Source of the DNA: Nocardioides sp. GY 10127
GTDB lineage: Bacteria > Actinomycetota > Actinomycetes > Propionibacteriales > Nocardioidaceae
Assembly (NCBI RefSeq): GCF_004919085.1
Contig: NZ_STGL01000005.1
Location: 496,001-560,000, forward strand
Reading direction: 5' to 3'
Length of the DNA: 64,000 bases
Shown here: positions 25,688-40,759 of the stretch, piece after piece
Numbering within the stretch: position 1 is the first letter of the stretch
How the letters are laid out: every line of letters starts with the position of its first letter
Program-made: the position numbers and the translations under genes
Notes under the pieces: model-generated
The model's input: the letters and a program-made list of their open reading frames with translations, nothing else
What the model was told of the DNA's origin: nothing
Database searches by the model: none

Positions 25688-26377
25688 TCAGCCGACCTGG
25701 TCGAGCCCGAGGGCGTCGAGGATGTCGTCCTCGGCGTCGATGAGGTGCTGGCGCAGGAAGGCGTCGGCACCCTGCACGTCGCCGGACTCCAGCAGGACGA
25801 CGAGGGCGGTGTGGTTCTCCGCCTCGTCGTGGGCGTTGCGCCGGATGCGCTCGACCTGCGCGAGGGCGAGCTTGAGCTCCACCACCAGCGCCTCGGCCAT
25901 CGCCTGGAGGCGCGGCGAGCCGGTGAGGCCCACCAGGGAGAGGTGGAAGGCCAGGTGCCGCTCGTTGAGCTCCTGGTAGGACGCCCCGGCGGCGACGGCG
26001 CCCGTGTACGCCTCGAGGGTCTGGCGGACGCGGCGGCGCTGCGCGTCCGTGGCGAGCTCCCACCGGCGCACCCCGGCCCCCTCCAGCACCCAGCGGGCGC
26101 GGCAGACGTCGCGCACCGAGTCGGCCTCGGGCGTCGTCACGCTCACGCCGCGGTTCGGCTCGCGCGTGGCCAGGCCCTCGGCCACCAGCATGGTGAGCGC
26201 CTCGCGCACGGTGGGCCGGGAGACCCCCAGCGAGCCGGCCAGCGCGACCTCGCGCAGCGGGGTGCCGGACTCCAGCTCGCCGTCGAAGATCGCGCGGCGC
26301 AGCTCCGCGGCGACGCGGTCGACGGTGGAGGAGTGCTCCAGCCGCAGGGTGGCGAACTGCTCGGACACGGGGCTCAT
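25688..26377 (-). CDS. GntR/FadR-family (FCD domain) transcriptional regulator
   Basis: A 229-residue regulator with a winged-helix N-terminus (VAAELRRAIFDGELESGTPL, GVSRPTVREALTMLVAEGL) and an all-helical FCD ligand domain whose histidines (ELNERHLAFH, ENHTALV) usually bind a metal and a carboxylic acid. It diverges from the DDAH-type gene, with a strong palindrome between them, so it probably controls that gene and itself. ATG at 26377 abuts an AGGAAG sequence directly; GTG three codons later (26368) has better spacing and may be the true start. Confidence 0.88.
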   Translation of the reverse strand: MSPVSEQFATLRLEHSSTVDRVAAELRRAIFDGELESGTPLREVALAGSLGVSRPTVREALTMLVAEGLATREPNRGVSVTTPEADSVRDVCRARWVLEGAGVRRWELATDAQRRRVRQTLEAYTGAVAAGASYQELNERHLAFHLSLVGLTGSPRLQAMAEALVVELKLALAQVERIRRNAHDEAENHTALVVLLESGDVQGADAFLRQHLIDAEDDILDALGLDQVG

Positions 26378-26488
26378 CTTCCTACGAGGCGTCGCCGCCC
26401 CGGCGCGGGACGTGCGGGGGCGGACGGGTGGGTGCGGGTGCGGGTGTCGGGACTTGCAGGGACCAGGGTCCTGCCTCACACTGGCCGA

Positions 26489-26513
26489 TGTCAGATTGTC
26501 TGACAATCTGACA
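26489..26513. promoter_or_regulatory. 25-bp palindromic operator
   Basis: The element starts TGTCAGATTGTC and ends with its exact complement around a single central base, with the core TTGTCTGACAA typical of FCD-type GntR sites. It lies between the divergent regulator and DDAH genes, about 75 nt before the latter's start. Confidence 0.75.
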
Positions 26514-26585
26514 GATGTGACCGGCGTCATCCCGACGGCCGCCCCGACCCCCGATGTGCCCCCGACGCTCCCCAGGAGGACAGCC

Positions 26586-27575
26586 GTGAGCTCTGCCCGG
26601 AACCACCCCGCCCGCACCGCCGACCTGCACGCCGTCCCCGCGGCCGCGCCGCTCGCCGCGCAGCAGCCCGCCCAGCTGGCCTGGGGCCGGCACTACGCGG
26701 CCGTCCGGCCGGACCACTTCCGGGTCGAGTACGCCATCAACCCGTTCATGCACCTCGACGACCAGCCCGACCCGGCGCTCGCCCTCGAGCAGTGGGAGCG
26801 GATGGTGGCGACCCTGCGCGGCCTCGGCGCGCAGGTCGACGTCCTCGACCAGCGGCCGGACTCCCCGGACATGGTCTACGCGATGAACCTCGGGCTCGGC
26901 TACGTCGACGCCCGCGGCCACGACGCCATGGTGATGAGCCACATGCGCTACGCCGAGCGTCGGCACGAGACCCGGTCGGCGGAGCCGTTCTTCGCCGCGG
27001 CCGGCCGGGCCACCTCGTTCGTCGGCGCCGACGGCGTCGGCCCGCACCTGGAGGCCGGCGACGCGTTCGCGTTCGGCGACGCCCTCGTGGTCGGCTACGG
27101 CCCCCGGACCGAGGAGGACGCCCTGGCGCACCTCGCCCGCACCCTCGAGGTCCGCGTGCGCGGCCTGCGGATCACGCACCCCGGGATGTACCACCTCGAC
27201 CTGGCCTTCTGCCCGCTCGACGAGCGCCGCGCCCTGGTCTGCCCCTCCGCCCTCGACGGCCCGTCCGCCGACGCGCTGCTCGACCTCGTGCCCGAGCCGC
27301 TCGTGCTCACCGAGGCCGAGGCGCTGAGCACCTTCGCCGCCAACTCGGTGGTGGTCGGCCGCACGGTCGTCATGCCCGCCTGCCCGCCGCGCGTGCGCAC
27401 CCGCCTGGAGGAGTGGGGCTTCGAGGTCGTCATCGTCGAGGTCGGCGAGTTCCACAAGGGCGGTGGCTCCATCCGCTGCCTCACCAACCCGCTCGACGTC
27501 ACCGTCGGCCGCGACCTGCCGCGCGTCGAGGGCGGGGACGTCGTGCTGCCCGGTGCGGTGGAGGGCGTCGCCTGA
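26586..27575 (+). CDS. Dimethylarginine dimethylaminohydrolase/amidinotransferase-family protein
   Basis: A 329-residue guanidino-group-modifying enzyme. The catalytic His is in THPGMYHLDLAFCPLD and the nucleophilic Cys near the C-terminus in FHKGGGSIRCLTNPLD; the substrate-side NPFMHLDDQPD lies near the start. It should hydrolyse methylated arginine or arginine to citrulline, or transfer an amidino group. AGGAGG 8 nt before GTG fixes the start. The FCD-GntR regulator is encoded divergently, suggesting substrate-induced expression. Which guanidino compound it uses cannot be told from the sequence. Confidence 0.85.
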   Translation: MSSARNHPARTADLHAVPAAAPLAAQQPAQLAWGRHYAAVRPDHFRVEYAINPFMHLDDQPDPALALEQWERMVATLRGLGAQVDVLDQRPDSPDMVYAMNLGLGYVDARGHDAMVMSHMRYAERRHETRSAEPFFAAAGRATSFVGADGVGPHLEAGDAFAFGDALVVGYGPRTEEDALAHLARTLEVRVRGLRITHPGMYHLDLAFCPLDERRALVCPSALDGPSADALLDLVPEPLVLTEAEALSTFAANSVVVGRTVVMPACPPRVRTRLEEWGFEVVIVEVGEFHKGGGSIRCLTNPLDVTVGRDLPRVEGGDVVLPGAVEGVA

Positions 27576-28367: not shown

Positions 28368-29459
28368 ATGAGCGACGAGGCCCGCCCCGCCACCCCGACC
28401 CCGCGCCCGCACCTGGCGCGCGTGCCCGCCTACGTGCCCGGCAAGCCGCCGGCCCCGCGGGAGGACCTGGTGACCTACAAGCTCTCCAGCAACGAGAACC
28501 CCTACCCGCCGCTGCCCGGCGTGATCGCCGCGGCGCACGAGGCGGTCGACACCATGAACCGGTACCCCGACATGGGCAACGGCGTGCTCTACGCCGGGCT
28601 CGCGGAGAAGCTGGGCGTGCCGGCGAGCCACCTGGCCGCGGGCACGGGCTCGGTGGCGCTGATCTACCAGCTCCTCACGGCGTTCTGCGAGCCCGGCGAC
28701 GAGGTCGTCTACCCGTGGCGCAGCTTCGAGGCCTACCCGATCGCGGTCTCCACGTGCGGCGCGGTCTCGGTGCAGGTGCCGCTCACCGCCGACGGCCGCC
28801 ACGACCTCGAGGCGATGCTCGCCGCCATCACGGACCGCACCCGGATCGTCATGGTCTGCACCCCGAACAACCCCACCGGCCCCTCGCTCACGCAGACCGA
28901 GCTCGACGCCTTCCTCGCCCGCGTGCCCTCGCACGTGGTGGCGGTCGTCGACGAGGCGTACCTGGAGTTCGTCCGGATGGACGACGCCGTGGACGGCATC
29001 GCCACCTACGCGCGGCACGAGAACGTCGTGCTCTTCCGCACCTTCTCGAAGGCCTACGGGCTGGCCGGCTTCCGGGTCGGCTACGCCGTGGCCCCCGAGC
29101 CGATCGCGGCCGCGCTGCGCAAGGTCTCGCTCCCCTTCGGCGTGAGCTCGGTGGCCCAGGTGGCCGCGGTCGCGTCGCTGGGTGCGGAGGAGGCGCTGCT
29201 CGAGCGCGTCGACGCCCTGGTGGCCGAGCGCGACCGTGTCGGCGACGCCCTCAAGGCGCAGGGCTGGGCGATCCCGGACGCCCAGGGCAACTTCGTGTGG
29301 TTCGGCCTCGGCGAGCGGACGCTGGAGCTCGCCGCGGCCTGCGAGGAGGCAGGCATCGTCGTGCGGCCGTTCGCGGGCGAGGGCTGCCGGGTGTCCATCG
29401 GCGAGCCCGAGGCCAACGACCGGCTGATCGAGGTCGCCGCGCGGTTCGTCCGCGGCTGA
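28368..29459 (+). CDS. Histidinol-phosphate/aromatic aminotransferase
   Basis: A 363-residue fold-type I PLP enzyme. It shows [15 protein letters not shown] near the start, the cofactor-side CTPNNPTGP, the Asp/Tyr pair in [10 protein letters not shown], and the Schiff-base lysine in [16 protein letters not shown]. The arginine in [13 protein letters not shown] binds the substrate carboxylate or phosphate. Because it lies outside any his operon, it may be the aromatic amino-acid aminotransferase (Pat/HisC2 type) rather than the histidine-pathway enzyme. It appears to be a leaderless, single-gene transcript. Confidence 0.85.
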
Positions 29460-29487
29460 CGGCGGCTGACGGCGTCGCCGGGCGCGG

Positions 29488-29620
29488 TCAGAGCCGGCCG
29501 GCGACCGCGAGGGCGACGACCCCGAACCGGACGGTGCGCCCGACGAGGCACAGGACGGCGAACAGCGACCGTCGCCGGCCCCGCGGCCCTGGACACCCCA
29601 CGGCAGCGCAGGCCTCGGGG
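29488..29620 (-). pseudogene. Possible C-terminal remnant of a membrane protein
   Basis: The minus strand can encode RRRSLFAVLCLVGRTVRFGV+VALAVAGRL and then stop, which resembles the last helix of SNARE-associated/DedA-like membrane proteins. Upstream of it the frame is proline/arginine-rich and not protein-like, so any gene here would be a decayed fragment. The rest of the roughly 300-nt gap between the aminotransferase and the amidoligase gene shows nothing else. Confidence 0.2.
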
Positions 29621-29755
29621 GGCCCGTGAGAGGCCGGCCGGAGGGGCCGGGAACGCACCCGAGACCCCGCCGGACCCGGGCACGCAGCGAGAATCACCGG
29701 GCAATTCGGTGAGATGGTGATGCCCTCGTAACGGTGACCGGGCAGTCTTGCCCCC

Positions 29756-32700
29756 ATGTCGATCAAGGTCGCCCTGGAGCACCGGACCACCTACGACTTC
29801 GCCGAGCCGGTGGGGGTGGGCCCGCACGTCGTCCGGCTGCGGCCCGCGCCGCACACCCGCACGCCGATCGACGCGTACTCGCTCAAGGTCGAGCCGGCCA
29901 ACCACTTCATCAACTGGCAGCAGGACGCGTTCGGCAACTGGCTGGCGCGGCTGGTCTTCCCGGAGAAGGTGAAGAAGCTCGACATCACGGTCGGCGTGGT
30001 CGCCGACATGATCACCATCAACCCCTTCGACTTCTTCGTCGAGGAGTACGCCGAGCACTTCCCGTTCGACTACACCGAGGAGCTCCGCAGCGACCTCGCC
30101 CCCTACCTGCGCCCCGTCGAGGACGCGGAGAAGGTGGACGCCTGGCGCGAGGCGCTGGACCTGCCCTCCGAGGGCGTGCGGACCGTCGACTTCCTGGCGC
30201 AGCTCAACGCCGCCGTGCAGGGCGAGATCGCCTACTCGGTGCGGATGGAGCCCGGCGTCCAGACCCCGGACCACACGCTGGCCAGCGCCATCGGCTCCTG
30301 CCGCGACTCCGCGTGGATGCTGGTGAGCCTGCTGCGCCAGTACGGCCTGGCGGCGCGGTTCGTCTCCGGCTACCTCGTCCAGCTGGCCGCCGACCAGGAG
30401 AGCCTGGACGGCCCGAGCGGCCCGGCCGAGGACTTCACCGACCTGCACGCGTGGACCGAGGTGTTCGTGCCGGGCGCCGGCTGGATCGGGCTGGACCCGA
30501 CGTCCGCCCTCTTCGCCGGCGAGGGCCACATCCCGCTCTCCGCCACCCCGCACCCGTCCTCGGCCGCGCCCATCGACGGCGCCACCGACAAGGTCGAGGT
30601 CGAGTTCTCCTACTCCAACACCGTCACCCGCGTCCACGAGGACCCGCGCGTCACCAAGCCCTACACCGACGAGGCGTGGGCCCGGGTGGACGCCGTGGGC
30701 CGGGCTGTGGACGCGCGCCTGGAGGCCGGCGACGTGCGCCTCACGATGGGCGGCGAGCCGACCTTCGTGGCGCTGGACGACCAGATCTCGGACGAGTGGA
30801 ACACCGACGCCGACGGCCCGCACAAGCGCGAGCTGGCCCGCACCCTGGCCGAGCGCCTGCGGAAGACGTACGCGGTGGGCGGGGTCGTCCACCGCGGCCA
30901 GGGCAAGTGGTACCCGGGCGAGCCGCTGCCCCGCTGGAACATCGCGCTCCAGTGGCGCACCGACGGCAAGCCGCTGTGGGGCGACCCCGCGCTGCTGGCC
31001 GAGCCGTGGGACACCTCCGGCGCCTTCGAGGACGCCCACGAGCGGGCCGAGAAGCTCGCGCAGCGGGTGACGCGGACGCTCGGCCTGCCGATCGAGCAGC
31101 TGCGGCCCGCCTACGAGGACCCGTTCCTCGCGCTGGCCGAGTCCGTGGCCCGCCCGCACGGCGAGCGGCCCGAGGTGGACCTGCTCGACCCCGAGCACGT
31201 CGACGCGCTGGTGGCCGCCGGCGAGGAGCTCCCGGCCCCGCACGTCCCGGTGGCCGACGCCCGCACCGCCCGCGAGCACCACGGGGTCGAGACCGACCCG
31301 GTGCGCGACTCCGACGCCGAGCCCGGCGCCAAGGGCCTGCGCGACCCCTCCGACCCCACCGACCCGCGGGCCCGCGCGGCCCGCGAGCGCGACGAGGAGC
31401 ACCCGGAGGAGCACCCGGACGAGGCCGCCGAGGCCGCCGAGGCCCCCGTGTCGATGGTCGACCGGCTCGACGCCGCCGGCCTCGAGCTCATCCAGCGCCT
31501 GGACGAGGCGGTGACCGAGCCGTCCGGCTGGGTCCTGCCCCTGACCCCGGGCGAGGAGTGGACCTCCCCGCAGTGGCGCCTGCGCCGCGGGCGCCTGGTG
31601 CTCACCCCGGGCACGAGCGCGGTCGGCCTGCGGCTGCCGCTGGACTCGGTCTCGTGGGTCGACCCCGAGCCCGACGACCAGCCGTCCTACCTCGAGGCCG
31701 GGGCGCCGCTGGAGCCCTCGGTCCCGGTCGTCCGCGTCTGCGCCCCGGACGGCGCGGCCACCACCGCCGTCGCCTTCGAGGCCCGCGACGGCCACGTGCA
31801 CGTCTTCCTCCCGCCGACCCAGCGGCTGGAGGAGTACGCCGACCTGCTGAAGATCATCGAGGTCGCGGCCCGCCGGCTGCGCCAGCCCGTCGTCCTCGAG
31901 GGCTACGGCCCGCCGCCGGACCCGCGCCTGACCAGCCTCACCGTCACCCCGGACCCGGGCGTCATCGAGGTCAACGTGCAGCCCACCCGCACCTGGGGCG
32001 AGCTGCGCGACCTCACCGAGACGCTCTACGACGAGGCCCGCCGCTCGCGGCTGACCACGGAGAAGTTCGACCTCGACGGGCTGCACACCGGCACCGGCGG
32101 CGGCAACCACCTCACGCTCGGCGGCCACCAGCCGGTGGACTCCCCGATGCTGCGCCGCCCCGACCTGCTGGTGAGCCTGCTGCGCTACTGGCAGCGGCAC
32201 CCCTCGCTGTCCTACCTGTTCAGCGGACGCTTCATCGGCCCGACCAGCCAGGCGCCGCGCTTCGACGAGGCGCGCCCGGAGGCCGTCTACGAGATGGAGA
32301 TCGCCTTCGCGGAGATCTCCCGGATCACCGACTCCCTGGCCTGGCAGGGCCTGGAGCCGCGCCCGTGGCTCGTCGACCGCGCCCTGCGGCACCTGCTCGT
32401 CGACCTCACCGGCAACACCCACCGCGCCGAGTTCTGCATCGACAAGATGTACAGCCCGGACTCCTCCCGCGGCCGCCTCGGCCTGCTGGAGCTGCGCGGG
32501 TTCGAGATGCCCCCGCACGCCCAGATGGCGCTGGTCCAGGCGCTGCTGGTGCGCAGCCTCGTGGCGATGTTCTGGGAGCGGCCGAACACCGACCCGCTGG
32601 TGCGCTGGGGCACGGGCCTGCACGAGCGGTTCCTGCTGCCGCAGGGCTGCATCGCCGACATCGCCGAGGTGGCGGCCGACCTGCGCGGCGCCGGCATCGC

Positions 32701-33352
32701 GTTCGAGGAGTCCTGGCTCGACCCGTTCACGGAGTTCCGCTTCCCGCGGATCGGCGTGGTCCGGGTGCCCACGACCCCGGGGCTGCGGCCCGAGCAGGGC
32801 GGCAACGCAGTGGAGCTGGAGCTGCGCCAGGCCATCGAGCCGTGGACCGTCCTGGGCGAGGAGGCGACCTCCGGCGGCACGAGCCGCTACGTCGACTCCT
32901 CGGTCGAGCGCGTCCAGGTCACCGTCCGCGACGCCGACCCCTCGCGCCACCTCGTCACGGTCAACGGCGTCCCCGTGCCGCTGGCGCCCACCGGCCGACC
33001 CGGCGAGTACTACGCCGGCGTCCGCTACCGGGCGTGGCAGCCGTGGTCCGCGCTGCACCCCTCGATCGGGGTGCACGCGCCGCTGCACGTCGACGTCGTC
33101 GACGCGTTCTCGCAGGTCAGCCTCGGTGGGGCGACCTACCACGTGGCGCACCCGGGCGGTCGCAACTATGACGTCCCGCCGGTCAACGCCAACGAGGCCG
33201 AGGCCCGTCGCCTCACCCGGTTCGCCCCGCGCGGGCACACCCCGGGCCTGCTGGACGTCGCGGCCATGCGCGAGACCGGCCGCCGCGCGGCGTCCGCCGA
33301 GACCCCGCACACGCTGGACCTGCGGCGCGTGCCGGGACCGCTCCTCACCTGA
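29756..33352 (+). CDS. Transglutaminase-like protein fused to DUF2126 (predicted amidoligase)
   Basis: A 1198-residue protein. The first 80 residues are the bacterial transglutaminase N-domain (LEHRTTYDFAEPVGVGPHVV). The papain-like transglutaminase core follows, with Cys at about 182 (GSCRDSAWMLV), His at about 232 (DLHAWTEVFVPG) and Asp in IGLDPTSALFAG. From about residue 310 the DUF2126 region begins (RLTMGGEPTFVALDD, GKWYPGEPLPRWNIALQWR) and fills the rest, interrupted by an acidic, disordered stretch around 520-560. DUF2126 has been predicted to be an amidoligase (Iyer and colleagues). So one chain could both form and break amide bonds. A CAGTCT hexamer lies 7 nt before the ATG. It heads the ATP-grasp/alpha-E/transglutaminase cluster. 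Confidence 0.9.
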   Translation: MSIKVALEHRTTYDFAEPVGVGPHVVRLRPAPHTRTPIDAYSLKVEPANHFINWQQDAFGNWLARLVFPEKVKKLDITVGVVADMITINPFDFFVEEYAEHFPFDYTEELRSDLAPYLRPVEDAEKVDAWREALDLPSEGVRTVDFLAQLNAAVQGEIAYSVRMEPGVQTPDHTLASAIGSCRDSAWMLVSLLRQYGLAARFVSGYLVQLAADQESLDGPSGPAEDFTDLHAWTEVFVPGAGWIGLDPTSALFAGEGHIPLSATPHPSSAAPIDGATDKVEVEFSYSNTVTRVHEDPRVTKPYTDEAWARVDAVGRAVDARLEAGDVRLTMGGEPTFVALDDQISDEWNTDADGPHKRELARTLAERLRKTYAVGGVVHRGQGKWYPGEPLPRWNIALQWRTDGKPLWGDPALLAEPWDTSGAFEDAHERAEKLAQRVTRTLGLPIEQLRPAYEDPFLALAESVARPHGERPEVDLLDPEHVDALVAAGEELPAPHVPVADARTAREHHGVETDPVRDSDAEPGAKGLRDPSDPTDPRARAARERDEEHPEEHPDEAAEAAEAPVSMVDRLDAAGLELIQRLDEAVTEPSGWVLPLTPGEEWTSPQWRLRRGRLVLTPGTSAVGLRLPLDSVSWVDPEPDDQPSYLEAGAPLEPSVPVVRVCAPDGAATTAVAFEARDGHVHVFLPPTQRLEEYADLLKIIEVAARRLRQPVVLEGYGPPPDPRLTSLTVTPDPGVIEVNVQPTRTWGELRDLTETLYDEARRSRLTTEKFDLDGLHTGTGGGNHLTLGGHQPVDSPMLRRPDLLVSLLRYWQRHPSLSYLFSGRFIGPTSQAPRFDEARPEAVYEMEIAFAEISRITDSLAWQGLEPRPWLVDRALRHLLVDLTGNTHRAEFCIDKMYSPDSSRGRLGLLELRGFEMPPHAQMALVQALLVRSLVAMFWERPNTDPLVRWGTGLHERFLLPQGCIADIAEVAADLRGAGIAFEESWLDPFTEFRFPRIGVVRVPTTPGLRPEQGGNAVELELRQAIEPWTVLGEEATSGGTSRYVDSSVERVQVTVRDADPSRHLVTVNGVPVPLAPTGRPGEYYAGVRYRAWQPWSALHPSIGVHAPLHVDVVDAFSQVSLGGATYHVAHPGGRNYDVPPVNANEAEARRLTRFAPRGHTPGLLDVAAMRETGRRAASAETPHTLDLRRVPGPLLT

Positions 33353-33449
33353 GGAGGGTGGCGGTGACTGCGGACGTGGGGTGCGTCGGCCGCGACCCGG
33401 CGGCGACGCCGACGGGCGTCGGAGGGCCGGGTCGGGTGAGAATGGCGCC

Positions 33450-36050
33450 GTGACGGTCCTGCGCGACTACGCGGCCACGGTCTCCCAGCCGCCTCTGGAC
33501 GACACCGTCCGGCCCCGCCGCTTCGACGAGATGGTGGGCCCGGACGGCTCGCTGCGACCCGCGTGGAAGCCGCTGGCGGAGCTGGCGGTGGGCCTCACCG
33601 CCCATGACCTCTACCGCGTCGACGGCGACATCGTCCGGATGCTCGCGGACGAGGGCGTCACCTACGGCCGCCCCGGCGAGCGGCCCGGTCCGTGGCGCCT
33701 CGACCCCGTGCCGCTGCTCGTCGACGCCCCGACCTGGGCGCCGCTCGAGGTCGGCCTGGCCCAGCGCACCGAGCTGCTCAACGCCCTGCTCGTGGACCTC
33801 TACGGCGAGCAGCGGGTGCTGCGGGAGCGGGTCGTGCCCGCGCCGGTCGTGCTCGGCCACCCCGGCTTCGTCCGGGCGATGGCCGGGGCGCGGATGGCGG
33901 ACAGCCACCCCCTGATCTTCTCCGCCACGGACGTCGGGCGCGACGGCGAGGGCGGCTGGCGCGCGGTGGCCGACCGCACCCAGGCGCCCTCGGGCATCGG
34001 GTACGCGATGGAGAACCGCCGCGTCCTCTCCCGCGTGCTGCCGGAGCTCTACCGCGAGTCCGGCCTGCACCGGATGGAGCCGTACTTCTGGGCGCTGCGC
34101 AGCGCCCTGATGCAGGCCGCGCCCACCGACACCGCCGACCCGCGCGTCGTCGTCCTCACCCCCGGAACCCACTCCGAGACGGCCTACGACCAGGCGTTCG
34201 TCGCCTCGACGCTCGGCTTCCCCCTCGTCGAGGGCAGCGACCTCGTCGTCCGCGACGGCTGGGTCTACCTGCGGCAGGCCCGCGGCCGGTTGGAGCGGGT
34301 GGACGTCATCCTCCGCCGCGTCGACGCCGCGTGGTCGGACCCGCTGGAGCTGCGCGGGGAGTCCCAGCTCGGCGTCGTCGGGCTCACCGAGGCGGCCCGG
34401 CGCGGCCGGGTGCGCGTGGTGAACCCCATCGGCGCCGGCGTCCTGGAGAACCCGGCGCTCATGCCCTACCTGCCCGCGGCCTGCGAGCTGCTGCTGGGCG
34501 AGCCGCTGCTGCTGGACTCGGCCGAGACCTGGTGGTGCGGCGAGGCCGCCGGCCTCGAGGCCGTCCTCGACGCGTTCGCGAGCGACCCCGAGCTGCGCCT
34601 CACCGGCATCGACGGGGAGGACGCCGGCCTGGCCGGCCTGCCGCGCAGCGAGGTCGTCCAGCGGCTGCTGGCGACGCCGCACCGCTACGTCGGGCAGCGC
34701 ACCCCCGTGCTCTCCCAGGTGCCGACCTGGCGCGCGGGCTCGGCCCGCCCGCGGCCGGTCACGCTGCGGACCTTCACCGTGCGCTACGGCTCCGCGTACC
34801 GGCCGCTGGTCGGCGGCATGGCGAACGTGCTGGACGAGCTCACCGGCCGCTCCTCGGCGAGCAAGGACGTCTGGGTGCTCAAGGCCGACCCGGCCGACAT
34901 CGACCAGGGGCTCTCCGGCGTCCTGGCCGCCACGCCCGGGCGGGCGGCGCCGGTGGCCGCGCCCCGCGTGCTCGAGGACCTGTTCTGGACGGGCCGCTAC
35001 GCGGAGCGCGCGGAGGACCTGCTGCGGGTCCTGCTGGTCACGCACGCGGTGGCCGAGGACTACCGCACCCGCCCCCGCACCGCCGGCGGCACGAGCCTGG
35101 AGGTGCTCCTCGCGTCCCAGGCGCGGCTGGCCGGCCGGGTGCACGCCGACCTCGACGAGGAGTTCCGCTCCGTCCTGCTCGACGCCGACCGCGTCGGCGG
35201 CGTCGGGCACAGCATCGCCTCGCTGCGCGACGCCCTGGCCGGCGTCCGCGACCAGCTCTCGACCGACACCTGGCGCGCCTTCGGCGTCATCGACCGGGCC
35301 GTGGAGCTCCTCGAGGGCACGCGGTACAGCCACCAGATCGCCGAGTCGGCCGGGCGCCACCTGACCGGCCTGCTCTCCCTCCAGGGGAGCACCGCGAACA
35401 TGATGCAGGACGAGGGCTGGCGGCTGCTCTCGGCCGGCCGGCTGCTCGAGCGCGCGCTGCAGCTGTGCCACCTGCTCGTGGGCACCACCACCGAGCGCCG
35501 AGGGCTGGACGTCGACCGGGCCGTGCTCGGCGCGGTGCTCGAGGCCGCCGAGTCCGGGGTCACCCACCGCCGGCGCTTCCGCGGCTACGTCCGGCCCGCC
35601 GGCGTCCTGGACCTGCTGCTGCTCGACCCCGACAACCCGCGGTCCCTGCTCCACTGCCTGGTGCAGCTGCGCGGGCACCTCGCGCACCTCCCCGGCTCGA
35701 CCGGCTCCACGCGGCCGGAGCGGCTGCTGGAGAACCTGCTCTCCGAGGTCGAGGCGCAGGAGGTCTCCTCGCTGGTGGCCATCGGCGGGGCCGACCGCCC
35801 CCTGCTCACCGAGTTCCTGGAGACGATGCTCGACCGCCTCACGACGCTGGCCGACGCCATCGCCGACCACTACCTGGCCGTCGGCCCGCCGCCGCGCCCG
35901 CTCAACAGCCTCGCGGTGCTGGAGTCGCTGCCGCTGGAGCCGGTCACCGGCACCATCCCGATCATCACCGACGACATGGAGCGACCGCCCGGCATCCCCC
36001 CGCGCACGCCCCGGGGCGGCTCGCGCCCGGGCGGGGGTGAGCGGCCGTGA
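33450..36050 (+). CDS. Circularly permuted ATP-grasp protein fused to an alpha-E domain
   Basis: 866 residues from GTG. Residues up to about 480 are the circularly permuted ATP-grasp type 2 domain (KPLAELAVGLTAHDLYRVDG, GIGYAMENRRVLSRVLPELY, VVLTPGTHSETAYDQAFVA, RVVNPIGAGVLENPALMPYL). From about 510 the helical alpha-E domain begins (EDLFWTGRYAERAEDLLRVL, ESAGRHLTGLLSLQGSTANM). In many bacteria these are two genes; here they are fused. The ATP-grasp part is predicted to ligate amino acids or peptides using ATP. The function of alpha-E is unknown, but it always travels with this enzyme. The stop overlaps the next transglutaminase start (GTGA). Confidence 0.9.
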   Translation: MTVLRDYAATVSQPPLDDTVRPRRFDEMVGPDGSLRPAWKPLAELAVGLTAHDLYRVDGDIVRMLADEGVTYGRPGERPGPWRLDPVPLLVDAPTWAPLEVGLAQRTELLNALLVDLYGEQRVLRERVVPAPVVLGHPGFVRAMAGARMADSHPLIFSATDVGRDGEGGWRAVADRTQAPSGIGYAMENRRVLSRVLPELYRESGLHRMEPYFWALRSALMQAAPTDTADPRVVVLTPGTHSETAYDQAFVASTLGFPLVEGSDLVVRDGWVYLRQARGRLERVDVILRRVDAAWSDPLELRGESQLGVVGLTEAARRGRVRVVNPIGAGVLENPALMPYLPAACELLLGEPLLLDSAETWWCGEAAGLEAVLDAFASDPELRLTGIDGEDAGLAGLPRSEVVQRLLATPHRYVGQRTPVLSQVPTWRAGSARPRPVTLRTFTVRYGSAYRPLVGGMANVLDELTGRSSASKDVWVLKADPADIDQGLSGVLAATPGRAAPVAAPRVLEDLFWTGRYAERAEDLLRVLLVTHAVAEDYRTRPRTAGGTSLEVLLASQARLAGRVHADLDEEFRSVLLDADRVGGVGHSIASLRDALAGVRDQLSTDTWRAFGVIDRAVELLEGTRYSHQIAESAGRHLTGLLSLQGSTANMMQDEGWRLLSAGRLLERALQLCHLLVGTTTERRGLDVDRAVLGAVLEAAESGVTHRRRFRGYVRPAGVLDLLLLDPDNPRSLLHCLVQLRGHLAHLPGSTGSTRPERLLENLLSEVEAQEVSSLVAIGGADRPLLTEFLETMLDRLTTLADAIADHYLAVGPPPRPLNSLAVLESLPLEPVTGTIPIITDDMERPPGIPPRTPRGGSRPGGGERP

Positions 36051-37054
36051 GGTACCGCGTCACCCACCGCACCACCTACACCTACGACAAGCCGGTCACC
36101 GACTCCTACGGCCTGGCCTACGTGACGCCGCGGACGCTACCGTCGCAGGAGGTCGAGCAGTGCGAGGTGATGGTCAGCCCCGCGCCGTCCGACCTCACCA
36201 CCCGCGAGGACTACCTCGGCAACCTCGTCACCTATTTCCAGGTCACCGAGCCCCACCGCCGGCTGGAGGTGGAGGCCGTCTCGACGATCCGCACCGCCGA
36301 GCCGACCCACCCGGAGGCCTCGCTGGCCCAGCCGTGGGAGCGGGCGCGGCCGCTGGAGCACCCCGACCTGCCCGGTTCCCGCGACGCCACCGACCTGGCG
36401 CTGCCCTCGGCGCTGGTCGAGCAGACCGAGCAGGCCGCCGCGTACGGCGCGGCGTCGCTCACGCCCGGCCGCCCCCTCGGCGAGGCGGTGATCGACCTCA
36501 TGCGCCGCGTCCACCGGGACTTCACCTACGACAAGACCGCCACCACGGTCACCTCGACCATCCCGGACGTGTTCGAGAGCCGCGCCGGCGTGTGCCAGGA
36601 CTTCGCCCACCTCATGCTGGCCTGCCTGCGCAGCCACGGCCTGGCCGTCCGCTACGTCTCGGGCTACCTGGCCACCGACCCGCCGCCGGGCAAGCCGCGG
36701 ATCGTGGGGGCGGACGCCTCGCACGCCTGGGTCGCGGTGTGGCTGCCCGGCGTCGACGGCGCCGAGGACGCCTGGCTCGCGGTCGACCCGACGAACGACC
36801 AGACGGCCAACGAGCGGTACGTGACCGTGGCCTGGGGCCGCGACTACGCCGACGTGCCGCCGGTCAAGGGCGTCATCTTCACCGAGGCGAAGCGGTCCAC
36901 GCTCAAGGTCTCCGTGGACGTGGCGCCGCTGGACGAGGACGGCAACCTGATCGAGGTCGTGGGCGCGCTGCCGGCGGCGGCGTCCGCCGCCTCGTCCGCC
37001 GCCGCCTCCTCCGCGGCCGGCACCCCGGTCGACCCCGCGGCGTCCGAGGACTGA
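36047..37054 (+). CDS. Transglutaminase family protein (cysteine protease-like)
   Basis: A 335-residue protein with the same N-domain as the first gene of the cluster (YRVTHRTTYTYDKPVTDSYG) and a transglutaminase core with Cys in SRAGVCQDFAHLM, His in ADASHAWVAVWLP and Asp in AVDPTNDQT. These residues suggest an active peptidase or amide-transfer enzyme, probably acting on the product of the neighbouring ATP-grasp protein. An Ala/Ser-rich tail of about 30 residues (ASAASSAAASSAAG) is likely disordered. Translation is coupled to the upstream gene. Confidence 0.9.
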   Translation: MRYRVTHRTTYTYDKPVTDSYGLAYVTPRTLPSQEVEQCEVMVSPAPSDLTTREDYLGNLVTYFQVTEPHRRLEVEAVSTIRTAEPTHPEASLAQPWERARPLEHPDLPGSRDATDLALPSALVEQTEQAAAYGAASLTPGRPLGEAVIDLMRRVHRDFTYDKTATTVTSTIPDVFESRAGVCQDFAHLMLACLRSHGLAVRYVSGYLATDPPPGKPRIVGADASHAWVAVWLPGVDGAEDAWLAVDPTNDQTANERYVTVAWGRDYADVPPVKGVIFTEAKRSTLKVSVDVAPLDEDGNLIEVVGALPAAASAASSAAASSAAGTPVDPAASED

Positions 37055-37129
37055 CACGGCGCCACCGGCTCCGGCGCGTCCCCGGGCGGGTGGTGCCCCC
37101 GCGGCGCCCGGATGCGTCATCCTTCCGCG

Positions 37130-38170
37130 GTGAAGGCGTACCGCTGCCGGGTCTGTGCGAACCCGCTCTACTTCGAGAACTCCGTCTGCGTGTCCTGCGG
37201 GACCAACCTGGGCTGGTCGCGCGCCGAGCGCGACATCGTGCCGGTGGACGCCAAGGGCACCTACACCGACGCCGCCGGCGAGGTCTGGTACGTCTGTAAG
37301 AACCTCAACCTCTCGGGCTGCACGTGGCTGACCCGCGACGAGGGCGGCTGGTGCTTCTCGTGCCACCTCACCCGCACCCGGCCCAACGACGCCGACCTCG
37401 AGGGCATCTCGAACTACCCCGTCGCCGAGCAGGCCAAGCGCGCGCTCATCACCGAGCTCGAGGGCCTGGGCCTGCCGATCCTCTCCAAGCAGGGCGAGGA
37501 CGGCGCGGGGACCGGGGCCGACGAGGTCGAGGGGCTGGCCTTCGACCTGCTCTCCTCGGTGGCCGAGAACGTGGTGATCGGGCACGCGGACGGCGTCATC
37601 ACCATCGACCTGGCGGAGTCCGACACGGTCTACCGCGAGAAGGTCCGCGACCAGATGGGCGAGCCGTACCGCACGATGCTCGGCCACTTCCGCCACGAGA
37701 TCGGGCACTACTACCAGTGGCAGCTCGTGCGCGACGACGAGACGCACGCGCGGTACGTGGAGCTGTTCGGCGACGACACGGTGAGCTACCAGGACGCCAT
37801 CGACCGGCACTACGCCGAGGGCGCGCCGGCGGACTGGGCCGACCACTTCATCTCGACCTACGCCACGATGCACCCGTTCGAGGACTTCGCCGAGACCTGG
37901 GCGCACTACCTGCACATCGTCGACACCATCGAGACGGCGCGCTCCTACGGCCTGGCCGGGCCGATGGCCGTCGAGCCGGCGTTCCGCGACGTCGTCCAGC
38001 ACACCTGGATACCGCTCTCGACGGCGCTCAACATGGTCAACCGGTCGATGGGCAAGGAGGACCTCTACCCCTTCGTCATCCCGGAGGCGGTCGTGGACAA
38101 GCTCGAGTTCGTGGACGGGCTCGTGCGCGCCAGGTCCGGCAACGTGACGGGCACGCGGCCGCTGGGCTGA
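37130..38170 (+). CDS. Zinc-ribbon putative metallopeptidase (Peptidase_Mx type)
   Basis: A 346-residue protein. An N-terminal zinc ribbon has paired cysteines (YRCRVCANPLYF, SVCVSCGTNLGW) and further Cys at GGWCFSCHLTR. The peptidase core shows HFRHEIGHYYQW, a gluzincin-like HExxH, and a later Glu in PFEDFAETWAHYLHI as third ligand. It is annotated in many genomes as a putative zinc-binding metallopeptidase and often neighbours the transglutaminase/ATP-grasp genes. It is likely cytoplasmic, with no signal peptide. GTG at 37130 follows CATCCT by 6 nt, a leaderless pattern; an ATG 18 nt upstream is less likely. Confidence 0.85.
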   Translation: MKAYRCRVCANPLYFENSVCVSCGTNLGWSRAERDIVPVDAKGTYTDAAGEVWYVCKNLNLSGCTWLTRDEGGWCFSCHLTRTRPNDADLEGISNYPVAEQAKRALITELEGLGLPILSKQGEDGAGTGADEVEGLAFDLLSSVAENVVIGHADGVITIDLAESDTVYREKVRDQMGEPYRTMLGHFRHEIGHYYQWQLVRDDETHARYVELFGDDTVSYQDAIDRHYAEGAPADWADHFISTYATMHPFEDFAETWAHYLHIVDTIETARSYGLAGPMAVEPAFRDVVQHTWIPLSTALNMVNRSMGKEDLYPFVIPEAVVDKLEFVDGLVRARSGNVTGTRPLG

Positions 38171-38226: not shown

Positions 38227-39204
38227 ATGGCGACGACGACCGAGCACACCCCGTCCTACGTGGAGAAGGGGAAGGGCTACGACCGGGACATGACCTACGT
38301 GCCGGACCGGATCACCGCCGGCGCCCGGACCCCGGAGCACGGCCCGGTCAACGGCGAGCTCTGGCCGGTCGAGCCCGGCCGGTACCGCCTCGTCGCGGCG
38401 CGCGCCTGCCCGTGGGCCAACCGGGCGATCATCGTCCGCGAGCTCCTGGGCCTCCAGGACGTCATCTCCCTCGGCCTGCCCGGGCCCACGCACGACCAGC
38501 GCTCCTGGACGTTCGACCTCGACGAGGGCGGCGTGGACCCGGTCCTCGGCATCCACTTCCTCAAGGACGCCTACGAGAAGCGCTTCCCCGGCTACCCGCG
38601 CGGCATCACGGTGCCGACTGTCGTGGACGAGCGCACCGGCGAGATCGTCACGAACGACTTCCCGTGGATCACCCACGACTTCTTCCACGAGTGGAAGGAG
38701 TTCCACAAGCCCGACGCGCCCGACCTGTGGCCCGCGGACCTGCGCGAGGAGATGGACGCGGTCAACAAGCGCGTCTTCACCGAGGTCAACAACGGCGTCT
38801 ACCGCTGCGGGTTCGCCGGCTCCCAGGAGGCCTACGAGGCCGCCTACGACCGGCTCTTCACCGCCCTGGACTGGCTCGAGGAGCGGCTCGCCGACCGCCG
38901 CTACCTCATGGGCGACCGGCTCACCGAGGCCGACGTCCGCCTCTTCACCACCCTCGTCCGGTTCGACGCGGTCTACCACGGGCACTTCAAGTGCAACCGG
39001 AACAAGCTCACCGAGATGCCCAACCTCTGGGGCTACGCCCGTGACCTGTTCCAGACCCCCGGCTTCGGTGAGACGGTGGACTTCGACCAGATCAAGGCGC
39101 ACTACTACGTCGTGCACACCGACATCAACCCCACCGGCATCGTCCCGAAGGGTCCGGACGCGTCGGTCTGGCTCACGCCGCACGGGCGTGAGTCGCTGGG
39201 CTGA
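38227..39204 (+). CDS. Glutathionyl-hydroquinone reductase-like (Xi-class GST) protein
   Basis: A 325-residue Xi-class glutathione-transferase-like protein. The thioredoxin-fold part carries the catalytic cysteine in AARACPWANRAIIVREL, and the helical part contains YLMGDRLTEADVRLFTTLVR and VYHGHFKCNRNKLTEMPNLW, both typical of YqjG/EcmB-type enzymes. Such enzymes reduce glutathionyl-hydroquinones. Actinobacteria normally use mycothiol, so the thiol partner is probably different. Its promoter carries an operator-like palindrome, suggesting induction by quinone or oxidant stress; inferred. Confidence 0.85.
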   Translation: MATTTEHTPSYVEKGKGYDRDMTYVPDRITAGARTPEHGPVNGELWPVEPGRYRLVAARACPWANRAIIVRELLGLQDVISLGLPGPTHDQRSWTFDLDEGGVDPVLGIHFLKDAYEKRFPGYPRGITVPTVVDERTGEIVTNDFPWITHDFFHEWKEFHKPDAPDLWPADLREEMDAVNKRVFTEVNNGVYRCGFAGSQEAYEAAYDRLFTALDWLEERLADRRYLMGDRLTEADVRLFTTLVRFDAVYHGHFKCNRNKLTEMPNLWGYARDLFQTPGFGETVDFDQIKAHYYVVHTDINPTGIVPKGPDASVWLTPHGRESLG

Positions 39205-39234: not shown

Positions 39235-39831
39235 TCAGCCGACGGGCTGGGCCGCCCAGACGGTCCACCACTGCGGCAGCAGCCGCTCGAACAGGCTCAT
39301 GAAGGCGTCGACGTCCTGCTCGGGGGCCTGGATCCAGACGGCGATGACGCCGACGGTGGCGTCGGCCAGGAACCGCTCGGCGGCCCGGGCGGCGAGGTCG
39401 TCGTCGATCCCGGGGGCGTGGACGTCGAGGTCGATCCGCCCGGCGCGGACGAGCTCGCGCGTCGAGCCGGCGAAGTGGCGCGCCAGCATCGCGTGCAGCG
39501 AGCTGGGCCCGGCGTCGTCGGCGAGACCCTGGCGGTAGACGGCCAGGTGGTCGCGCACGTGCACGAGTACGCTCCGGGTGGTGTGCGAGACGGCCTGCTC
39601 CACCGGCGTGTCCTGGTCGAGGAGCCCGGTGCGGAACGCGTCGAGCTGCTCGACGAGCGCCTGCTCGAGCAGGGCGAAGGGGGAGGTCGCGTGCTCGTAG
39701 AACGTGGTGCGGTGGACGCCGGCCTCGGCCGCCACCTCGGTCACGCTGAGCGAGGCCACCGGACGCTCCTGCGCCAGCGCCAGCACCGCCCGGTGCAGTC
39801 GTTCCCGGCTGCGTCGCTGTCGTGCGTCCAT
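39235..39831 (-). CDS. TetR/AcrR-family transcriptional regulator
   Basis: 198 residues. The N-terminal HTH reads ASLSVTEVAAEAGVHRTTFY, followed by an all-helical ligand domain ending LPQWWTVWAAQPVG. It diverges from the SDR gene with a 14-nt palindrome in the shared region, so it likely represses that gene and itself. Its 3' end lies 30 nt from the stop of the convergent glutathione-transferase-like gene. Confidence 0.88.
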   Translation of the reverse strand: MDARQRRSRERLHRAVLALAQERPVASLSVTEVAAEAGVHRTTFYEHATSPFALLEQALVEQLDAFRTGLLDQDTPVEQAVSHTTRSVLVHVRDHLAVYRQGLADDAGPSSLHAMLARHFAGSTRELVRAGRIDLDVHAPGIDDDLAARAAERFLADATVGVIAVWIQAPEQDVDAFMSLFERLLPQWWTVWAAQPVG

Positions 39832-39943
39832 CGGTCCCCTCGCTGTCCCTCGCCGCTCGCCGGGGCTCCGTCGCCCCGACTGAGGATGTGACCCACGTCT
39901 CAGGAATGGATCACGTTGCGAGCAGGTTACTCCTCCACAGAGT

Positions 39944-40003: not shown

Positions 40004-40759
40004 ATGGCCACTTACGACGTAGCGAACCGCTCCGCCATCGTCACCGGAGCGGGCAACGGCATCGGCCGCTCGGTCGCCCTCACCCTCGCCGCCAGCGGCG
40101 CCTCCGTCCTCGTGTGGGACCTCGTCGAGGACGCCGCGGAGAAGGTCGTCGCCGAGATCGAGGAGGCCGGCGGCATCGCCCAGGCCTTCGTCGGCGACGC
40201 CTCCGACCCCGAGACCCACGCCAAGGCCGTCGAGGCCGCCAACGCCATGGCGCCGCTCAAGATCGCCGTGAACAACGCCGGCATCGGTGGTGCCTCCGCC
40301 CCGCTGGGCGAGTACCCGCTCGACTCCTGGCGCAAGGTCATCGAGGTCAACCTCAACGGCGTCTTCTACGGCGTCCAGGCCCAGGTCAACGCCATGAAGG
40401 CCAACGGTGGCGGCGCCATCGTGAACATGGCCTCCGTGCTCGGCTCCGTGGGCATCGAGAACTCCGGCGCCTACGTCACCGCCAAGCACGGCCTGCTCGG
40501 CATGACCAAGAACGCCGCGCTCGAGTACGGCACCGACGGCGTCCGCGTCACCGCGGTCGGCCCGGGCTTCATCAAGACCCCGCTGCTCGAGGCGAACCTC
40601 GACCAGGCCACCCAGGACTTCCTGGCCTCCAAGCACGCCCAGAAGCGCATGGGCCAGCCGGAGGAGGTCGCCTCGCTCGTGGCGTTCCTGGTCTCGGACG
40701 CCGCGTCGTTCATCACCGGCTCCTACCACCTGGTCGACGGCGGCTACGCCGCCAGCTGA
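40004..40759 (+). CDS. Short-chain dehydrogenase/reductase
   Basis: A 251-residue classical SDR. The NAD(P) motif is VTGAGNGIGRS, the structural motif is VNNAGIGG, and the catalytic Ser/Tyr/Lys are present in VNMASVLGSVGIENSGAYVT+AKHG. An acidic Asp at the end of the second beta strand (VLVWDL) suggests preference for NAD. GAGGAGG 9 nt before the ATG gives a strong ribosome site, and codon use is strongly biased, suggesting high expression. Substrate unknown; the neighbouring TetR-type protein probably controls it. Confidence 0.9.
   Translation: MATYDVANRSAIVTGAGNGIGRSVALTLAASGASVLVWDLVEDAAEKVVAEIEEAGGIAQAFVGDASDPETHAKAVEAANAMAPLKIAVNNAGIGGASAPLGEYPLDSWRKVIEVNLNGVFYGVQAQVNAMKANGGGAIVNMASVLGSVGIENSGAYVTAKHGLLGMTKNAALEYGTDGVRVTAVGPGFIKTPLLEANLDQATQDFLASKHAQKRMGQPEEVASLVAFLVSDAASFITGSYHLVDGGYAAS

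Follow-up and report, generated by a model that had tools for sequence, protein, structure and literature searches.

What does a bacterium make, and what does it take apart again, with two unlike amide-forming ligases, two transglutaminase-type cysteine enzymes, an alpha-E domain and a putative metallopeptidase encoded side by side? The question is raised by positions 29756-38170 of a 64 kb stretch of contig 12 in the 4.40 Mb genome of Nocardioides sp. GY 10127 (the whole analysed stretch is referred to here as the window). Amidoligase/ATP-grasp/alpha-E/transglutaminase gene sets were reportedly predicted by Iyer et al. in 2009 (Mol BioSyst 5:1636), with tagging as the proposed function, and the cluster in the window is an unremarkable actinobacterial example of this known, predicted gene set. 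Our reading, to which we assign a probability of roughly 0.55, is that the set belongs to a pathway of amide conjugation and deconjugation that is induced by nitrogen limitation and captures or recycles nitrogen. The best-supported statement is functional rather than chemical: two unlike ATP-dependent amide ligases would work alongside several amide-cutting enzymes, induced by nitrogen shortage.

Four collinear genes on the forward strand make up the cluster, and the domains named for them in the initial annotation were all recovered by Pfam above family cut-offs. The first gene (29756-33352; product P0001) fuses a transglutaminase-like part (residues ~1-250; Bact_transglu_N 90 bits, Transglut_core 56) to DUF2126, a putative amidoligase of glutamine-synthetase fold (residues ~278-1190; 1133 bits, cut-off 27). 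Its closest matches among those listed, at 80% identity, are Nocardioides records. The second (33450-36050) joins a permuted ATP-grasp domain of the glutathione/glutathionylspermidine synthetase type (CP_ATPgrasp_2, 402 bits) to alpha-E (Alpha-E, 208 bits), and codon use makes the GTG at 33450, which is not the first start codon of the frame (33126), the most likely start. An unfused transglutaminase-like cysteine enzyme follows (36047-37054; P0003; Bact_transglu_N 88 bits, Transglut_core 69 bits; PDB 6g49, E 6.9e-10), and then a putative metallopeptidase with a zinc ribbon and an HExxH motif (37112-38170; P0004; Zn_ribbon_DZR_6 59 bits, Peptidase_Mx 310 bits). A gap of 97 nt separates the first gene from the second, the second and third overlap, 57 nt lie between the third and fourth, and the next gene starts 56 nt downstream; because the genes nearly touch, the four likely form one operon. 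Gaps of at most 97 nt leave no space for a precursor peptide gene of ordinary size inside the operon, in agreement with the earlier remark that none is visible.

Relatives were collected with the fused P0001 as query, and the best 80 loci of at least 569 matches were kept; these loci come from many phyla, as expected for a gene set described as widespread, and a fused query biases the sample towards the fusion. Transglutaminase and DUF2126 share a single unbroken frame in 78 of the 80 loci (the exceptions are L019 and L025), and 67 frames across the 80 loci carry the ATP-grasp-alpha-E fusion. The initial annotation took the two fusions as a sign of direct coupling of the steps. Both fusions are present, but the argument is weak because they occur in loci of several phyla. 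In some proteobacterial loci an additional ATP-grasp and alpha-E pair, with the two genes unfused, accompanies the cluster. Peptidase_Mx lies near the cluster in 15 of the 80 loci, all actinobacterial by record title (some loci are truncated before its presence could be judged). An Anbu-like gene is found in 10 of the 80; the Proteasome profile recognises nine of the ten proteins at E <= 0.01, four of them with scores above its cut-off, and the single protein searched against PDB hit Anbu chains of solved structure. Peptidase_Mx may be the actinobacterial counterpart of Anbu, and a search of the Nocardioides sp. GY 10127 genome with an Anbu protein, run with no positive control genome, found no Anbu-like gene. 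The same genome carries, on contig 9 (L087 8509-11950), an unfused trio of ATP-grasp, alpha-E and transglutaminase genes. We refer to the cluster in the window as module A and to this unlinked trio as module B. The three genes of module B stand together in all 19 loci of its relatives; methionine aminopeptidase was rejected as a fourth partner, adjoining module B in only three of these.

We infer nitrogen regulation of the gene set from sequences upstream of its genes. The consensus of the actinobacterial regulator GlnR is given as gTnAc-n6-GaAAc and variants in the accessible part of PMC10704036, and our strict pattern was GTnAC-n6-GnAAC, in either order, at -60 to -33 from the start codon. 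Exact boxes precede the DUF2126 gene, at -38 or -39, in 10 of 25 upstream regions (24 loci and the window), and module B in 8 of 20. Further congeners have them at -38 to -50 in 8 of 10 cases (one repeats an already counted box; the box of L157 is identical to that of L013, and the two may be the same species). In 500 first-order Markov resamples the mean number of strict boxes was at most 0.018 and no set ever exceeded 1; none of the sets had a box in any of three control bands that lie beyond this interval upstream. The looser pattern GNNAC-n6-GNNAC at -42 to -36 was found in 13 of 25 regions for module A, against a resample mean of 0.1, and in 10 of 20 for module B, against 0.08. It is present in 5 of the 10 congeners, and in another three an exact box lies farther upstream by one turn of the helix. 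The counts for module B include as misses four of the 20 upstream regions for which no start codon was found (L133-L136) and one with a seemingly misplaced start (L129).

In the window itself a GlnR-box-like site, GTGATGCCCTCGTAAC (29717-29732, +), lies 39 nt before the start codon of the DUF2126 gene with one mismatch to GTNAC-n6-GNAAC. The genome's own module B has CTTACGTCGAGGAAAC at -40, also with one mismatch, followed by TAGGGT and the ATG. CAGTCT at 29743-29748 (+), read from the sequence, may be a weak -10 element; a sigma-70 consensus scan of that region found no promoter. The short distance from box to ATG suggests leaderless transcription of the cluster, which is a prediction. Across the genome the exact GlnR pattern occurs at 34 sites, compared with 7 for the backwards control. 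Loci were obtained for 30 of the 34, about ten of the sites being intragenic, and ten downstream proteins, chosen by eye, were scanned. These include glutamine synthetase, an ammonium transporter, a nitrite/sulphite reductase, OHCU decarboxylase and a class V aminotransferase; IclR, TetR, ABC and electron-transfer proteins are also found downstream of such sites. One exact box pattern (39915-39930, -) falls in the window 1.7 kb past the cluster, between a TetR-family gene (39235-39831, -) and a short-chain dehydrogenase gene (40004-40759, +). The literature searched, judged by listings and some passages, contained no paper that ties GlnR to these genes, and as far as those listings could show, GlnR boxes on this gene set are new. 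The accessible portion of a Mycobacterium smegmatis nitrogen transcriptome does not mention cluster-type genes.

A different type of nitrogen-regulator site marks the set in proteobacteria. Locus groups were assigned by record titles, 'proteobacterial' here including Campylobacterota and Desulfuromonas/Deltaproteobacteria, and 8 of the 80 loci (Poribacteria, Verrucomicrobia and Kapaibacterium) fell outside all promoter-test groups. The sigma-54 test covered 74 operon heads in 41 proteobacterial loci and sites 10-260 nt upstream, with sigma-54 and NtrC distances measured from the first matched residue rather than the start codon. Heads carried 21 sigma-54 sites, compared with 0.99 expected from density, and the reversed motif gave 1 versus 0.46. 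Against resampled heads (first-order Markov) 20 were observed, with a mean of 1.3 and a maximum of 5. None was found at the heads of the 25 actinobacterial loci. Exact pairs of NtrC half-sites numbered 12, compared with a mean of 1.65 and a maximum of 5 in 40 resamples. Judging by the annotation name, the Burkholderia gene for a 'large protein containing transglutaminase-like domain' is presumably the DUF2126 gene.

Published expression data point the same way. The available passages of PMC5491218 list changes of -6.0 to -9.4 in a Burkholderia cenocepacia ntrC mutant for the genes of DUF404/407, DUF403 and two transglutaminases. For Pseudomonas putida on nitrate versus ammonium, the accessible text of PMC8050072 gives log2 values of 4.44 for Anbu and 3.99 for ATP-grasp. 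A Bradyrhizobium CP_ATPgrasp gene is preceded by a predicted RpoN site in the excerpted part of PMC13207237, and these domains correlate with urea metabolism in a marine metagenome in that of PMC3597751. As far as these excerpts go, the Burkholderia and Pseudomonas nitrogen-limitation data agree with the sequence signature, and the proteobacterial nitrogen response of the gene set is already in print.

Modules A and B also occur together. Among 37 Nocardioides genomes DUF2126 is present in 10, module B in 13 and Peptidase_Mx in 12; some of these genomes are incomplete (three at 84-87%), so that single absences are soft. All 10 congeners with DUF2126 carry module B (Fisher p 8e-7, a value that ignores shared ancestry). 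The two modules lie on different contigs or far apart wherever positions could be read, and genomic linkage therefore does not account for their joint occurrence. All 10 carry Peptidase_Mx as well (p 2e-7, with the same proviso), an association that is less telling because the genes are neighbours. We came across no publication that describes modules A and B occurring together, though no search aimed at it was made. Across 198 genomes of the phylum, DUF2126 was found in 8, Peptidase_Mx above its cut-off in 11 and alpha-E in 31, with the 8 and the 11 both contained in the 31. Gene adjacency explains much of this overlap but not two further patterns, the number of alpha-E matches and the genomes with Peptidase_Mx alone. 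At least two alpha-E matches were present in all 8 DUF2126 genomes and in 2 of the 23 other alpha-E genomes. Three genomes (G108, G189 and G194) have Peptidase_Mx without DUF2126, each with alpha-E on other contigs, and G234, from another family, has DUF2126 without Peptidase_Mx. Exceptions among the congeners are G198 (Peptidase_Mx without module B) and G216 and G218 (module B without Peptidase_Mx); G212 and G218 have a module-A-like ATP-grasp gene and no DUF2126 match, and a divergent ATP-grasp match in G227 (E 2.1e-90) was not counted as module B. The partial sets of G212, G218, G216 and G198 are natural test cases for the interdependence of the parts. A third, divergent ATP-grasp copy (L142, G224:C1:965579-966961), with one in-frame TGA in the matched stretch, is possibly a decaying paralogue.

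The folds predicted for the two proposed ligases are of amide-ligase type and in this respect support the earlier assignment of two putative amide-forming activities. An AlphaFold2 model of DUF2126 was built from a 51-sequence alignment (predicted local distance difference test, pLDDT, 78.9), and the 50 VIA-align rows listed for it are all of glutamine-synthetase or GCS2 type (Z 14.0-16.1), headed by 8oox (Z 16.1; 274 aligned, 3.8 Å) and including GmaS 7cqn (Z 14.7) and YbdK 1r8g (Z 14.0). Foldseek placed YbdK (GCS2 type) first at E 2.6e-3, followed by glutamine synthetases. A DUF2126 sequence profile had no meaningful match in PDB and recovered no glutamine synthetase there; the 'amidoligase' label is supported at the level of the modelled fold. 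For the ATP-grasp-alpha-E fusion (model pLDDT 89.4), the ATP-grasp sequence itself matched 3n6x in PDB (E 4.8e-64), and the model matched 3n6x (Z 41.9), human glutathione synthetase 2hgs (Z 23.9), YgiC (Z 22.8) and GspS 2iob (Z 20.8), with eukaryotic glutathione synthetases scoring Z about 24. Searches with the whole fusion model, the only form in which alpha-E was searched, gave no trustworthy structural match for alpha-E. A likeness of its helices to cytochrome bd subunits (Z up to 10.7) was left unused, as it falls inside the range where helical proteins mislead.

Residue conservation was read from alignments of related loci that included the window itself and excluded sequences with too short a match. 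The transglutaminase triad of P0001 (C182/H231/D247) is conserved in 79 of 79 aligned sequences; in P0003, all 67 aligned sequences keep C183 and H226, and 66 of them keep D247. P0004 keeps H195, E196 and H199 of its HExxH motif, together with eight cysteines of the ribbon region, in all 16 sequences. The 51-sequence DUF2126 alignment, in which the more divergent members share 50-60% identity with the window, has over 100 invariant columns; the conserved positions include E63, E467, TGGGNH at 509-514 and E641-x-R643 (A1 numbering), with T509 and N513 at 90% or more and the others invariant. The order of these elements resembles that of glutamine synthetase motifs, a presumed correspondence read from the order alone. 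Loss of catalytic residues had been named as a result that would count against the earlier interpretation: both transglutaminases and the peptidase keep theirs, and for the ligases the check concerns conservation only and not active-site identity.

Taken together, the computed evidence comprises domains, predicted folds, conserved residues, site enrichment and joint occurrence, and from it we infer site function, reactions, substrate, compartment and nitrogen outcome. Modules A and B would form one two-module intracellular pathway that is switched on by nitrogen shortage. Its two ATP-dependent ligases, one with a glutamine-synthetase fold and one a glutathione-synthetase-type ATP-grasp, would couple a carboxylate and an amine into an amide. 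The transglutaminase-like enzymes and the metallopeptidase (Anbu in some proteobacteria) would then cut or rearrange this amide, freeing nitrogen for use. PuuA and GmaS are glutamine-synthetase-fold ligases that put glutamate on amines and bring amine nitrogen into metabolism, and in GspS a glutathionylspermidine synthetase ligase works beside a cysteine amidase. By analogy with this gamma-glutamylation and this making and breaking of an amide, we tentatively suppose a small-molecule substrate, which appears somewhat likelier than a protein tag and still falls short of even odds. Rather unlikely, in our estimate, is a cross-phylum form of the proposal in which modules A and B, under GlnR or NtrC/sigma-54, would attach an amino acid or peptide, possibly to a protein as a second Pup-like route, during nitrogen starvation, and Anbu and the metallopeptidase would be interchangeable releasers that return the nitrogen.

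Several observations weigh against the nitrogen-limitation pathway. One-mismatch boxes arise by chance in about 1.36 of 25 (module A) and 0.96 of 20 (module B) resampled upstream regions, or ~5%; at this rate the window's own case for GlnR rests on its relatives, and the window alone is weak evidence for GlnR control. The sigma-54 sites are confined to 15 of the 41 proteobacterial loci, 13 of the 21 come from betaproteobacterial records, and the heads of the 6 Bacteroidota loci have none. The 12 exact NtrC pairs reduce to 8 distinct sites, of which Pseudomonas records contribute three, and one-mismatch NtrC sites are not enriched (39, compared with a mean of 25.7 and a maximum of 41 in resamples). 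Flanking proteins were scanned for 30 of the 80 loci (139 proteins, six long ones of the 145 picked being omitted). No nitrogen-assimilation family was among the 25 commonest of the 145 Pfam families found there, the 120 rarer ones being unlisted and the commonest occurring in 4 of the 139 proteins. The association of DUF2126 with Peptidase_Mx, and with alpha-E, is in large part what gene adjacency would lead one to expect, and loci and genomes are not mutually independent. With Foldseek the DUF2126 model had no match that reached E <= 0.001, and much of the list from rank 8 onwards consists of antibodies. The only enzyme activity encountered in print, in the accessible part of PMC6376114, is phosphate release from ATP by the ATP-grasp protein of the Yersinia Anbu operon.

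The signature would also fit the tagging of proteins for degradation in nitrogen starvation, with Anbu or Peptidase_Mx removing or degrading the conjugates as in the Pup-proteasome system. This is the function that Iyer et al. 2009 are cited as having proposed. The kinship of Anbu with the proteasome, carried by the Anbu-like gene in 10 of the 80 loci and the profile matches of nine of its products, keeps this reading alive, and the three genomes with Peptidase_Mx and unlinked alpha-E but without DUF2126 would suit it. Pupylation is described as aiding M. smegmatis in nitrogen starvation in the available passages of PMC8223512. Foldseek does list Dop structures as weak matches of DUF2126 (E 0.27 and above), but they score no better than the antibodies ranked near them. 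A tag gene, moreover, would not fit into the operon gaps. Small genes near homologous clusters, a check that the initial annotation had suggested, were sought among the 8,780 remaining frames of at least 50 amino acids in the 80 loci, compared all against all at E <= 1e-8 with a low-complexity filter. No conserved precursor or small-protein family stood out among the 45 widest families, which were a mixed one (15 loci), Anbu (10) and two shadow-frame families in the same places (8 each), the rest reaching at most 7. The accessible part of PMC6376114 also reports Anbu without peptidase activity, without a stable complex with its operon partners and without an AAA+ ATPase in the operon. We regard protein tagging as doubtful.

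A non-ribosomal amide polymer or storage peptide of the cyanophycin kind, built by the ligases and dismantled by the cysteine enzymes and the metallopeptidase, would account for a module that combines two domains of ligase type with three of hydrolase type, and for the nitrogen-regulator sites. Induction under nitrogen shortage probably suits use rather than storage. Cyanophycin synthetase is absent from the structure-match rows listed, which does not exclude kinship, and we know of no amide polymer from such a pathway. On balance a polymer seems improbable. We give equally little credence to a peptide or metabolite pathway that does not serve nitrogen supply (envelope cross-linking, a redox thiol or a polyamine conjugate) and is incidentally under nitrogen regulators. 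Global nitrogen regulators do control more than assimilation genes, and among solved structures the nearest ATP-grasp relatives whose product is known are synthetases of glutathione or glutathionylspermidine. However, in two phyla these genes carry sites for regulators of two types that are unrelated to each other, and the published expression data, as far as the excerpts go, group these genes with urea, urease and nitrate genes. Conjugation and deconjugation in the service of nitrogen supply remains the reading that we favour.

The cluster can be placed among known systems. With the sets of Iyer et al., known here by citation, it shares the same domain families in an operon (DUF2126, a permuted ATP-grasp with alpha-E, and Cys-His-Asp transglutaminases); the form in the window is actinobacterial, with Peptidase_Mx and a one-mismatch GlnR-type site. 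The Anbu operons of Yersinia, Pseudomonas and Hyphomicrobium resemble module B in combining ATP-grasp, alpha-E and transglutaminase and, in the P. putida data excerpted, respond to nitrogen, whereas module A has DUF2126, a fused ATP-grasp-alpha-E and, as its peptidase, a putative metallopeptidase. Judged by the predicted structure, the ATP-grasp of the window is of the same permuted type as that of GspS (Z 20.8), but only the ATP-grasp half of GspS is related, and the partners in the window are transglutaminase-like. GmaS, PuuA and GCS2/YbdK share the predicted DUF2126 fold (Z 14.0-16.1); DUF2126 differs in its large extra regions and fused transglutaminase, and its profile finds no glutamine synthetase in PDB. 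PafA and Dop are glutamine synthetase-type kin with a link to nitrogen starvation (accessible passages of PMC8223512), but the operon in the window has no Pup-like tag and Dop appears only in weak Foldseek rows.

Of the initial interpretation, the folds, the triads, the lack of space for a precursor and the spread hold up. Its fusion argument is weak, and the nitrogen sites, the unlinked trio and the joint occurrence had been overlooked. We know of no product of the gene set, as far as could be found, since its prediction in 2009. Two unrelated regulator systems and the joint occurrence of unlinked modules narrow the question from 'peptide or protein tag' to which amide is made and broken in nitrogen shortage. 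The nitrogen signature points to the growth condition, and the joint occurrence to treating both modules together.

Other candidate parts and roles were considered for the cluster. An anti-phage defence role was rejected, PADLOC models giving no family for the four cluster proteins at E <= 0.001. Long antisense frames, such as the 1409-codon frame opposite the DUF2126 gene (29081-33310, -), were taken as probable shadows of high-GC coding. The aminotransferase, VanZ, dimethylarginine dimethylaminohydrolase (DDAH)-like and glutathione S-transferase neighbours were rejected as parts of the system, each being found in only 3-5 of the 80 loci, all of them Nocardioides. The DDAH/arginine deiminase-like frame (26004-27575) lies upstream of the cluster and is present in 3 of the 80 loci; its family releases nitrogen. 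The glutathione S-transferase-like gene (38227-39204) begins 56 nt past the cluster and, among the loci compared, has 83-84% identical copies in three Nocardioides loci and in no others.

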